Positions 8,079 through 15,337 of a stretch of 51,801 nt of DNA are shown piece after piece. The notes under the pieces are model-generated. The model was not told where the DNA came from. It did no database searches and saw only the letters and a list, made by a program, of their open reading frames with translations. How positions within the stretch are numbered: the stretch's first letter is position 1; the number at the start of each line of letters is the position of its first letter. The position numbers were made by a program, and so were the translations under genes. The DNA comes from Bacillota bacterium (GTDB lineage Bacteria > Bacillota > Bacilli > Alicyclobacillales > SLC66), in the NCBI GenBank assembly GCA_021821085.1, contig JAKACV010000017.1, forward strand, positions 1-51,801, read 5' to 3'.

Positions 8079-8648
8079 TTACGGTGAGTGATTGATCGCT
8101 TGTTGCCAGACGGAAAACGTATGCTCACCGACAAGTTTCTCAACTTGTCCATGTGCAGGACGAAAGATAAGCATTGGAAATTCTGGGACAAGTGAATGCC
8201 AATCAGCAAGAAGGTAGTAGGTTTGTACATGGTGAATCCCAAAGGCTGTTGCTTCCTCATCCGTCAAATGTACTGCGGATTGCAGTGATGTGCCCGGAAC
8301 AAAGCCTGTGCTGATGAGAGTGGGAAAGTGGCGCAATTGCGCCCTTTTCTTGTTTAATAGAACGAGTGTACGCTGGCAGTGTGGGCACCAGTAAGCCTCA
8401 AATAGCAGGGGAGTGGTCGCTGCATTTAGCACGACCTTCTTTCCTGTAGCCGTATAAACAGTGAGCTGTGTATAGGCAGTTGCATTGGAAACTTGTTGTG
8501 GTTGATAGATGGTGATCGGCGTTGTTTCTTCGGATGTGAGACGATTTGTGAAGGGCGGATTGGTGTTCTCAGCATGCCACTGGTAGATCTGAAGCCCTGC
8601 GATCAGAATCACTGCTCCCACTGCCCCTGCAGCAAATTTGTAGTTCAT
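8079..8648 (-). CDS. Membrane-anchored thioredoxin-fold protein (CPHC)
   Basis: 189 residues. One N-terminal membrane anchor (about residues 5-21) is followed by an extracytoplasmic thioredoxin-like domain with the redox motif CPHC at 88-91 (EAYWCPHCQR). A likely cis-proline lies near residue 158 (EFPMLIF). CPHC is the DsbA-type active-site dipeptide, so a thiol-disulfide oxidoreductase working outside the membrane is likely, but its partner (DsbB/BdbC type) is not in the window. AAGGAG lies 7 nt before the ATG. The gene converges on guaA: its stop codon starts at the base after guaA's stop, leaving no space for a terminator. Confidence 0.75.
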   Translation of the reverse strand: MNYKFAAGAVGAVILIAGLQIYQWHAENTNPPFTNRLTSEETTPITIYQPQQVSNATAYTQLTVYTATGKKVVLNAATTPLLFEAYWCPHCQRTLVLLNKKRAQLRHFPTLISTGFVPGTSLQSAVHLTDEEATAFGIHHVQTYYLLADWHSLVPEFPMLIFRPAHGQVEKLVGEHTFSVWQQAINHSP

Positions 8649-10605: not shown

Positions 10606-12327
10606 CTATCTTTGCGCAGACGAAGAAAGCCAGTTTCTAAGTGTCGAGACATCCCACGTGTTGATGATGCGATCCGGAGTAAGCAATCCTTTACGGGCGA
10701 TGGTGGGGCCGTAAAGTGTAAGACGTTCTAAGTCATATACACTGTGCGCATCGCTGTCTACAGCAAAGAGGCAGCGAGTTTTCATGGCCAGACGTAGCCA
10801 CTCCGGATCTAGATCGAAACGATTCGGATTGCAATTTAATTCAAGAGCCACATGACTATGTTCAGCTGCACTAAAAATGCGGTCAAAATCGACTGCATAG
10901 CTGTCTCGTTGTCTCAGCATTCGACCTGTCGGATGGCCGATCATGTCTATGTACGGTGATTCAATCGCGTAGAGAAGACGTGCAGTGATCTCCTCTTTTG
11001 ATTGTGTCATCGAGGAATGAATGGAGGCGACGACAAAATCTAACGACTCTAGAATCACATCGGGAAAGTCAAGCGTTGCGTCGGCTAAAATATCCACTTC
11101 TGTGCCGTGAAAAATGCTGATTTGAGGATATTTCTCGCGCAATGCTAAGACTTCATCTCGTTGCTTCATGAGTCGATCTATTGTTAGTCCATGTGCGATA
11201 TCCAGCGACTGTGAATGATCTGTTAGCGCAAGAAACGAATACCCTTTTTCGACGCAACGATGAACCATCATTTCCATCGTATCCGCCCCGTCACTGTATC
11301 GCGAATGCATATGCAAATCACCCTGTATGTGGTGAAGTTGTACCAGCTGTTGTGCATTGCTGGTAAATGTGTCTTTCTCCCGGAGTTCAGGTATGACATA
11401 AGGCAACTTGGCTAGCTTGTACACTTCTTCCTCTGTGATGGCCGTCTTGATTATCCCTGCAGGTACAGTACTAGTCTCAATCTGCCGCCACAACCATTCC
11501 TCGTGCGCACGATCTCCTGTTGTGATTGTCCAGGCAAATGCAAATGAAGTGGGTTTCACAAGATAGAGAATGAATTGAATATCTAGCTCGTCTTGTTCTA
11601 CATTTTTTTCAAAAGTCGCTTCAATCAATGCACCCTCTGAATTTCTCAAATTCGTGAATATACTCGGGGAACGCGTATATCCATCCGTACTGAGTTTGGA
11701 AAGCGTCTCGACATCTCCATCCCATGCACATAATAACTCGAGTCGCGTGGAAATCGGGCACATGCGGCGCAGTGTGCCCGTCATTTCGATGCGTACAAGG
11801 TGGGGATACGTGTGTAAGATGCTTTCGATTAGGTCAGTTGCTATTCGTAACCCAATCGGGATGGGGATCGTAGCCTTTCTTTCACGTAAGCGATGAATGG
11901 CAACTGGTAACTGTGTAAGCTTTTCATTCGGAAGGACGCGAGCGAATGCAAGAGCACCTTTTGTCAAAGCGGTTTCAAGCTCGTCAAGCGAACGGATGCC
12001 AAGTGTTCGATAAAGACGTCCCGTGAGCTTTGGCCCAAATCCCGGTAGTTCCAAGACTTCGAGTAAAGTGGTGGGAATGCCAATCGACAGTTCGCTCAGT
12101 GCGGCTTTACGTCCTTTGGTGAGTAGCAGGTGAACACTCTGCAGTACAGATTCTGAAAAATAGAATTGCGTGCGTAATTGATGGATATCCAGATTCACAT
12201 GTGCGGGTAACTTGCGAATGGTATCTGCAGCGAATCTATAGTGCGCGGCTTGTTCTTCTCCGTCGCGCATGATCAAGTAAAGAGCAGAGATCGCGCGGAG
12301 GTTACGGGCGATACTTCGCTTATCCAT
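10606..12327 (-). CDS. polX: PolX-family protein: degenerate polymerase core plus PHP nuclease domain
   Basis: 573 residues, normal PolX length. Order: N-terminal 8-kDa-like region, helix-hairpin-helix at about 92-112 (LELPGFGPKLTGRLYRTLGI), Pol beta-type palm/fingers, and a PHP domain from about 335. The PHP metal sites look complete: DLHMHSRYSD, ALTDHS, HGTEVDIL, ASIHSS, IGHPTGR, DSDAHS. In the palm, however, the usual GSLRRG...GDIDxL motif reads GTLRRMCPISTRLELLC (residues 184-200), so the two catalytic aspartates appear as Arg and Glu. The third Asp may survive (DELDIQF). I therefore expect a 3'-5' exonuclease or AP-endonuclease-type activity rather than a working polymerase. AGGAGA lies 7 nt before the ATG. 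Confidence 0.85.
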   Translation of the reverse strand: MDKRSIARNLRAISALYLIMRDGEEQAAHYRFAADTIRKLPAHVNLDIHQLRTQFYFSESVLQSVHLLLTKGRKAALSELSIGIPTTLLEVLELPGFGPKLTGRLYRTLGIRSLDELETALTKGALAFARVLPNEKLTQLPVAIHRLRERKATIPIPIGLRIATDLIESILHTYPHLVRIEMTGTLRRMCPISTRLELLCAWDGDVETLSKLSTDGYTRSPSIFTNLRNSEGALIEATFEKNVEQDELDIQFILYLVKPTSFAFAWTITTGDRAHEEWLWRQIETSTVPAGIIKTAITEEEVYKLAKLPYVIPELREKDTFTSNAQQLVQLHHIQGDLHMHSRYSDGADTMEMMVHRCVEKGYSFLALTDHSQSLDIAHGLTIDRLMKQRDEVLALREKYPQISIFHGTEVDILADATLDFPDVILESLDFVVASIHSSMTQSKEEITARLLYAIESPYIDMIGHPTGRMLRQRDSYAVDFDRIFSAAEHSHVALELNCNPNRFDLDPEWLRLAMKTRCLFAVDSDAHSVYDLERLTLYGPTIARKGLLTPDRIINTWDVSTLRNWLSSSAQR

Positions 12328-13966: not shown

Positions 13967-15337
13967 TTAGTTGAGCGAGAATTCGCGAATTGATGTACGA
14001 TATTTTCCTGAACTTTGCCGTGCGATCTCAGGGACTAGTTCAACAATTACGTTGATTTTCCCCATTCTTTCGAGAATACCCTCGCGAAAGGCATCGATAT
14101 CTACCTGGTCTAATTGATCATGCTGCAAAATTCGAAGAACAAGTTCATTTCGCGACTTTTGAACGACTTGAAATTGGCGAATGGTCGGCAATATCCTCGC
14201 TAAATTTGTAAAAAATTGTCCATTTACATATGCCCCATCGAGAGCGATGAACGTATCATTTTCTCTGCCTTCCAAGCTTTTCAAAAGCGGTAAAGCCCTT
14301 TTACATGTACACGTTTCATCCGATAAGGACACGACATCTCCTAATTGGTATCTTAGCCTTGGCATGACGAAGTTGTGTAAGTCGGTGATGACGATGAGTC
14401 CCTTTTCGCCTGTTGCGACAGGTTCTTTTGTATCTATGTCAACCACTTCAATCCAGGCTGTCTCTACATTCAAATGCATGTTGCCAGATGGGCATTCATA
14501 GGCTAACAACCCGCCGTCTCGCGCTCCATACTCGTTGATAACGGGACACTCAAACGCTTTTTCGATCAATAGGCGATCGTGTGGATAGAGCATCTCTGCA
14601 GTGTTAAGTACAGCTTTGATTGGCCTGCGAAGCTTTCTGCTTTCAGTAAGCATAAATTCTGCGAAGAGAACAAGTGCAGAGGCCCACCCAAATAGGTAAA
14701 CTGGATGATAGGAGTCAATTAGATCTAAATACTCTGCGATCTTTTCCTTATGTAAATCAAATGACGGGATAAATACTTGGTTTTTTAACAATCGATCTTT
14801 TAATCGTTGTGTCTGCAGTTGCTGACGTGTGAGCTCAATTGGAGATCCCCAAATCATGACGCATGGATCGCCAATATGGATTCCCCACCAATTGAGACCA
14901 CGCCAACGCGCTGCCTCATAATACTCTACTGTGAGCCTGTCCATATAAAATTGGGTAGGTTGTCCAGTTGAACCGCCTGTCCGATTTAAGATCATGTGTT
15001 CACGCTTGGCTTGATCGGAGATGAGGCGGTCAAATTCTGTACGCACCATTTCTTTTGTCAAGACTGGGAATCGTCTCAACGCGGCGCCGGGATCTTTCTC
15101 AATTAATGGACGCAAATGTGCGTATTCCTTGTAAAAAGGAACATGGTCAATTGTATGCAGTAATAGTGTGCGCAACATGTTATCCTGAAGTTGTTGTAAT
15201 CCGCTTGATGACAGGCTTTCGGACGCTTGCAATTCACGTAAATGACGGCGAATTTGGTTTCCTTTCATTGTTTCCATCATTGGAAAAGCCACATTGCGAA
15301 TGAATACACTCTTCAATCTCAACAGAATCCAACTCAT
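13967..15337 (-). CDS. CapK/PaaK-like AMP-forming ligase (surface polysaccharide context)
   Basis: 456 residues of the phenylacetate-CoA ligase/CapK branch of adenylate-forming enzymes. The ATP-binding loop is NRTGGSTGQPTQFYMD and a second core motif is INEYGARDGGLLAYEC. Neighbouring sugar-nucleotide dehydrogenase and glycosyltransferase genes argue for CapK-type work on cell-surface polysaccharide rather than phenylacetate breakdown; the acyl substrate is unknown. It is transcribed divergently from those genes. The ATG at 15337 has no good Shine-Dalgarno sequence and lies about 20 nt from the predicted transcription start, so a later start is possible. Confidence 0.78.
   Translation of the reverse strand: MSWILLRLKSVFIRNVAFPMMETMKGNQIRRHLRELQASESLSSSGLQQLQDNMLRTLLLHTIDHVPFYKEYAHLRPLIEKDPGAALRRFPVLTKEMVRTEFDRLISDQAKREHMILNRTGGSTGQPTQFYMDRLTVEYYEAARWRGLNWWGIHIGDPCVMIWGSPIELTRQQLQTQRLKDRLLKNQVFIPSFDLHKEKIAEYLDLIDSYHPVYLFGWASALVLFAEFMLTESRKLRRPIKAVLNTAEMLYPHDRLLIEKAFECPVINEYGARDGGLLAYECPSGNMHLNVETAWIEVVDIDTKEPVATGEKGLIVITDLHNFVMPRLRYQLGDVVSLSDETCTCKRALPLLKSLEGRENDTFIALDGAYVNGQFFTNLARILPTIRQFQVVQKSRNELVLRILQHDQLDQVDIDAFREGILERMGKINVIVELVPEIARQSSGKYRTSIREFSLN

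Follow-up and report, generated by a model that had tools for sequence, protein, structure and literature searches.

Noncanonical PolX proteins make up 27.5% of prokaryotic PolX and have several origins, as reported by Prostova et al. in 2022 (PMC9226535). They are recognized by the substitution of at least one acidic residue of the polymerase triad, altered dNTP-binding residues, an intact nine-residue PHP site, and frequent but optional deletions in the fingers and/or palm. The phyla listed for their main cluster are Bacteroidetes and Deinococcus-Thermus, and many of the smaller bacterial groups fall in the Firmicutes, where 11 of 12 genomes with an altered PolX had NHEJ (PMC9226535). In the same study, the purified PolX proteins of Deinococcus radiodurans (triad AEE) and D. 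gobiensis (ARE) were strong Mn2+-dependent 3'-5' exonucleases but did not act as polymerases, and the D203A substitution in Bacillus subtilis PolX abolished polymerase activity alone; an older claim that the D. radiodurans enzyme polymerizes DNA may reflect contamination, according to these authors (PMC9226535). A 2026 survey found the PHP site to be more strongly conserved than the polymerase site (PMC12926913). Alicyclobacillus is not mentioned in the main text of either paper; single sequences of its order may sit in their data sets.

We analyzed a 51,801-nucleotide stretch of Bacillota DNA (contig JAKACV010000017.1, here called the window) from the order Alicyclobacillales, family SLC66, which carries a polX gene of this already known kind. 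What is new is an order-wide clade of predicted nuclease-only PolX to which the gene belongs. Its ORF starts with ATG, contains no internal stops, and is preceded by the bases CTAAACATAGGAGATGAAGG, a plausible ribosome site. The gene and the domains of its product are arranged as follows:

10606..12327, minus strand: polX, encoding a 573-residue PolX with triad REI and an intact PHP site (ORF and translation)
12079..12327, minus strand: 8-kDa-like N-terminal domain, residues 1-83 (Pfam HHH_8 at residues 3-44, 19 bits, below the cut-off of 30)
11872..12078, minus strand: HhH/thumb region, residues 84-152 (Pfam HHH_5 at residues 89-120, 14.5 bits, below its cut-off)
11557..11871, minus strand: palm domain, predicted to be inactive, residues 153-257 (AlphaFold2 model and alignment)
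11338..11556, minus strand: fingers and linker, residues 258-330 (alignment)
10609..11331, minus strand: PHP nuclease domain, residues 333-573 (Pfam PHP, 52.8 bits, cut-off 26.4)

The boundaries of the 8-kDa-like and HhH/thumb regions were placed by hand, the former from the alignment. The protein matched NCBIfam PRK08609 over residues 1 to 569 with 368 bits (E 8e-110), which is under the curated cut-off of 426; of the Pfam models, PHP scored above its cut-off and the HhH and thumb models below theirs. An AlphaFold2 model built with 20 members of the order as input (pLDDT 88.9) matched the known PolX structures 3au2, 3au6, and 2w9m with Z scores of about 36. Thermus thermophilus PolX (3au6) was matched over 538 residues (rmsd 5.4), and D. 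radiodurans PolX (2w9m) over its whole length (Z 36.4, rmsd 10.1), the latter deviation being expected if the domains sit differently. With the 8-kDa, HhH, palm, fingers, and PHP domains in this order and a fold match over the whole length, the protein is a prokaryotic PolX, and it resembles the canonical PolX of Bacilli (B. subtilis YshC type) and T. thermophilus (3au2, 3au6) in domain order, overall fold, and PHP active site.

The polymerase site is where it departs from these enzymes, which combine an Asp-Asp-Asp triad with a YF/HF-TGSKxHN motif, neither of which occurs here. The residues that bear on this are encoded at the following positions:

11764..11778, minus strand: G184-T-L-R187-R188, retained GSxRR-type motif (among the order's altered PolX, R187 occurs in 24/26 and R188 in all 26/26)
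11743..11745, minus strand: Arg195 codon, first catalytic Asp position (alignment with canonical PolX)
11737..11739, minus strand: Glu197 codon, second catalytic Asp position (alignment with canonical PolX)
11569..11571, minus strand: Ile253 codon, third catalytic Asp position (alignment with canonical PolX)
11503..11517, minus strand: G271-D272-R-A-H275, altered TGSKxHN motif (column counts)

Residues 184 to 200 read GTLRRMCPISTRLELLC, exactly as the preliminary description had given them, and align without gaps to the canonical GSLRRMRETIKDLDFII. That description had also reported two catalytic aspartates replaced by Arg and Glu, which the alignment bears out for Arg195 and Glu197; it overlooked the third, which lies in canonical VSVDFRLV and has become Ile253 in IQFILYLV. 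All three Asp positions, whose alignment with canonical PolX had been proposed as a check, are thus substituted, and two of the residues now present (Arg and Ile) are not acidic, as opposed to the three acidic palm residues of canonical PolX. The dNTP-binding part is likewise changed, as had been claimed, from canonical HHFTGSKDHN or YFTGSKAHN to TITTGDRAHE. Within it, GS has become GD, the equivalent of N279 is E276, the steric-gate YF/HF is IT, and the basic residue stays as R273, while Gly184, Arg187, Arg188, Gly271, and His275 are unchanged from canonical PolX. At position 272, Asp replaces Ser in 25/26 proteins of the altered clade, compared with Ser in 28/29 canonical proteins. The strands that once carried the triad (residues 195-202 and 248-257) are still predicted in the AlphaFold2 model, so the fold is kept and the metal site gone.

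The PHP site is complete. All nine metal ligands (HHDHEHHDH) are present as H339, H341, D346, H371, E410, H437, H465, D526, and H528, in agreement with the earlier reading that every PHP metal motif is kept, and the same nine occur in all members of the order aligned over this region. Also intact, and invariant across the altered clade, are four residues along the DNA path of the PHP domain, R469, R474, N498, and R503; in B. subtilis PolX, mutating these residues leaves every nuclease activity severely reduced (PMC6616362). The protein thus shares with noncanonical PolX (PMC9226535) the PolX architecture, a wholly substituted triad, dNTP-site changes, and an intact PHP site. It also shares shortened fingers, since the stretch from the TG motif to the linker is, in the window's genus, some 10 residues short of its canonical length (alignment). 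A point of difference is the palm, which is not shortened (105 versus about 93 residues over the same columns).

We searched all 59 genomes of the order in the collection for PolX and found 28 proteins, of which the window's family accounts for 11 and its sister family for 17. The latter is Alicyclobacillaceae: in the region compared, some of its rows do not differ from the PolX of Alicyclobacillus hesperidum (L071) and A. acidiphilus (L085). PolX is absent from the other 31 genomes, counting one (G034) whose match covers the PHP domain only. The triad is altered in 28/28 proteins and none has three acidic residues, so that chance or sequencing error does not account for the loss; a sequencing or assembly error was ruled out because the loss is common to 28 orthologues. 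The question of whether close relatives share the change, raised with the first description, is answered by the same count.

On the full-length tree, the altered PolX of the order form one clade (99/97), and they do so without the triad columns as well (100/99). On the PHP-only tree, the two families form two strong clades that are not joined, and an AU test did not reject joining them (p-AU 0.29). A single loss of the polymerase site in the ancestor of the order is the simplest reading; it falls short of proof, since shared decay of the core could draw both families together on full-length trees. The order's PolX represent a new, apparently separate clade of noncanonical PolX. Unlike the main cluster of PMC9226535, this clade belongs to the Bacillota, outside the phyla listed there, and is not named in the main text.

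In a sample of the class outside the families of the order, 35/40 PolX had Asp-Asp-Asp, and the remaining 5/40 were altered to NND (families f13 and f43; L143 in G132 and L150 in G213), QDR and RDR (f18; L157 in G094 and L168 in G074), and GLD (f3; L135 in G059), some of which retain one Asp. On the tree, none of these five groups with the order's PolX, and altered triads therefore probably arose several times in the class, which matches the prokaryote-wide result of Prostova et al. We also noted a Poribacteria MAG contig (L090) with an altered PolX (SER) and the same TTGDxxH fingers motif as the order, which groups elsewhere on the trees. In one further contig (L026), the PolX of G047 is split over two frames, one covering query residues 1-140 and the other 121-573, through either a frameshift or a sequencing error.

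Selection has acted unequally on the domains. At a PHP identity of 0.6 to 0.7, identity in the altered clade versus canonical Bacilli was 0.31 versus 0.51 for the palm, 0.41 versus 0.63 for the 8-kDa domain, 0.49 versus 0.60 for HhH, and 0.43 versus 0.62 for the fingers. Nei-Gojobori dN/dS, calculated for altered pairs with usable dS, was 0.26-0.42 for the palm and 0.05 for PHP in the window's genus, values that are rough because synonymous sites there are near saturation. Other altered pairs gave 0.06-0.42 for the palm, compared with 0.02-0.06 in canonical pairs, and the PHP values across altered pairs were 0.05-0.13. The ratio is well below 1 in every domain of the orthologues; the polymerase core is under relaxed yet purifying selection, and the protein is maintained. 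PHP is the domain under the strongest constraint in the order's PolX. The proposal in the preliminary description of a lineage in which PolX turned nuclease-only is thus supported by this constraint and by the order-wide loss, but its novelty is not, such proteins having been described and assayed in 2022 (PMC9226535) and confirmed since (PMC12926913).

Two genomes of the order show further reduction. In G008 and G010, the PolX ORF is about 430 amino acids long and starts near query residue 151, so that the 8-kDa/HhH region is missing and the palm is kept:

L123:7050-8333: PolX of G008 without 8-kDa/HhH, dead palm and PHP kept
L122:5589-6896: PolX of G010 without 8-kDa/HhH, dead palm and PHP kept

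In both, an upstream glycosyltransferase gene ends about 20 bases or less from the PolX start, leaving no space for the missing region. An internal deletion is suggested for G008, whose protein retains a short N-terminal SFMNNR string that also occurs in its relative G003; beyond this string, a global pairwise alignment of the two gave nothing sensible. Since G008 groups with full-length G003 on the PHP tree (100/99) and is not sister to G010, the two losses may be independent. The preliminary description had called the enzyme HhH guided. The data do not support this: the Pfam HhH matches are below cut-off, the 8-kDa/HhH region evolves faster than in canonical PolX, and two relatives lack it entirely, so the clade as a whole does not depend on such guidance. 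A PGFGP hairpin in the HhH/thumb region is conserved across the altered clade. Like the PolX-like proteins of Actinobacteria (PMC12926913), the order's PolX would have given up polymerase function and kept the nuclease part, but those proteins have no polymerase region at all, whereas the order's PolX retain the palm and what has been shed, in two relatives, is the 8-kDa/HhH region.

We consider it highly probable that the protein in the window is a noncanonical PolX, once a gap-filling polymerase, that now acts through its PHP domain only. In this scenario, the palm would be unable to bind the two catalytic metal ions, and polymerase activity would be lost. The C-terminal PHP domain would most likely act as a 3'-5' exonuclease that depends on Mn2+ and cleans 3' ends, and may or may not be an AP endonuclease as well. 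Damaged or mismatched 3' ends would serve as substrates, and other polymerases and ligases would complete the repair. The dead Pol-beta-like core probably persists as a structural, DNA-holding scaffold. Our literature search found no biochemistry on the PolX clade of this order; by the precedent of the Deinococcus enzymes, a nuclease-only function is very likely. No second, canonical PolX that could cover for the altered copy occurs in the window's genome, where it is the sole copy. The role is dispensable in the order, given the many genomes without PolX.

The pathway served appears to differ among members. The window's polX is flanked by an argJ-like/acetyltransferase pair (argJ named by sequence reading) and an amino-acid permease gene, with no adjoining repair gene; the mutS2 linkage of other Bacilli was not seen, mutS2 being on a separate contig (C23) of the same genome. 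Two nearby minus-strand ORFs, of 456 amino acids (13967-15337) and 189 amino acids (8079-8648), had no Pfam match at E 0.001, the latter being 59-61% identical in both congeners, and no RNA families were found in the window. In two relatives, polX sits near a split LigD NHEJ set:

L121:2246-6636 (G015): polX, ku about 45 bases further on, then ATP-dependent ligase and LigD-type primase-polymerase genes
L122:5589-11864 (G010): polX, two intervening genes, and about 2 kb downstream ku, ATP-dependent ligase, and LigD-type primase-polymerase genes

Both Ku and the LigD PrimPol are thus present in G010 and G015. Neither Ku (PF02735) nor LigD PrimPol (PF21686) occurs in the window's genome or its two congeners, all three 97.5-99% complete, and most genomes of the family that carry PolX lack them too. 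In Alicyclobacillaceae, Ku occurs in 17/17 PolX-bearing genomes and also in most genomes without PolX; co-occurrence of PolX and Ku was not significant by Fisher's test, uncorrected for relatedness (p 0.50 in the window's family, 0.13 in Alicyclobacillaceae). The LigD nuclease domain (PF13298) was found in 0/59 genomes of the order, by a search that matched only 1/14 control genomes. It has been suggested that PolX supplies the nuclease missing from NHEJ. This idea fits G010, G015, and Alicyclobacillaceae, and in Ku-bearing relatives PolX would probably give the nuclease that their split LigD system is without. It is inapplicable to the window's genus, which, unlike most Firmicutes with altered PolX (11 of 12 with NHEJ in PMC9226535), lacks NHEJ; there PolX cannot serve classical NHEJ and must work in another repair route. 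The window's genus has no exonuclease III gene (xth), nor does most of the family, and endonuclease IV (nfo) is present. A complementarity of PolX and exonuclease III is suggestive only, and with Nfo present though Xth is absent, PolX is not the sole AP-endonuclease candidate in the genus.

A different fate of the core, namely, that the dead palm and fingers gained a noncatalytic role such as nucleotide or DNA-end sensing, with R187 and R188 facing Asp272 in a possible palm-fingers lock, seems to us unlikely. GxxRR and TGDxxH are near invariant in the altered clade, Asp272 is almost fixed where canonical proteins have Ser, the dN/dS of the palm stays well below 1, and the palm is retained in both relatives that lost the 8-kDa/HhH region. 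The same residues may, however, merely hold the fold, and most other palm columns vary freely. A contact between R188 and D272 is a guess on our part; in Pol beta, R183 is reported to touch the GS motif. The more specific version, in which the fixed GxxRR-TGDxxH pairing makes the dead core a noncatalytic sensor of DNA ends or nucleotides that steers the PHP nuclease, outside NHEJ in the window's genus, is a speculative and distinctly unlikely one. That polX is a decaying pseudogene heading for loss would be in line with its absence from 31/59 genomes (G034 counted) and with the relaxed constraint on the core domains, but the full-length frame with its plausible ribosome site, dN/dS well below 1 throughout the orthologues, and the complete PHP ligands across the order make this very improbable. 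Hardly credible is a weak or altered polymerase activity with metal held by Glu197 and other acidic residues, for although Glu is common at the second triad position and one old report credits the D. radiodurans AEE enzyme with activity, a fully acidic triad occurs in no member, its third position never holds an acidic residue and often has Arg, and the pure AEE and ARE enzymes were inactive (PMC9226535).

Returning to the reading of a PolX that acts through its PHP nuclease, our analysis adds to the noncanonical PolX a putative nuclease-only clade that spans an order including Alicyclobacillus and stands apart from canonical Bacilli PolX on full-length trees. Within it, reduction appears stepwise, the triad being lost in all members, the fingers shortened within the window's family, and the 8-kDa/HhH region lost in two genera. 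As some of its hosts are free of NHEJ, the clade opens the cellular role of a nuclease-only PolX to study apart from Ku and LigD.
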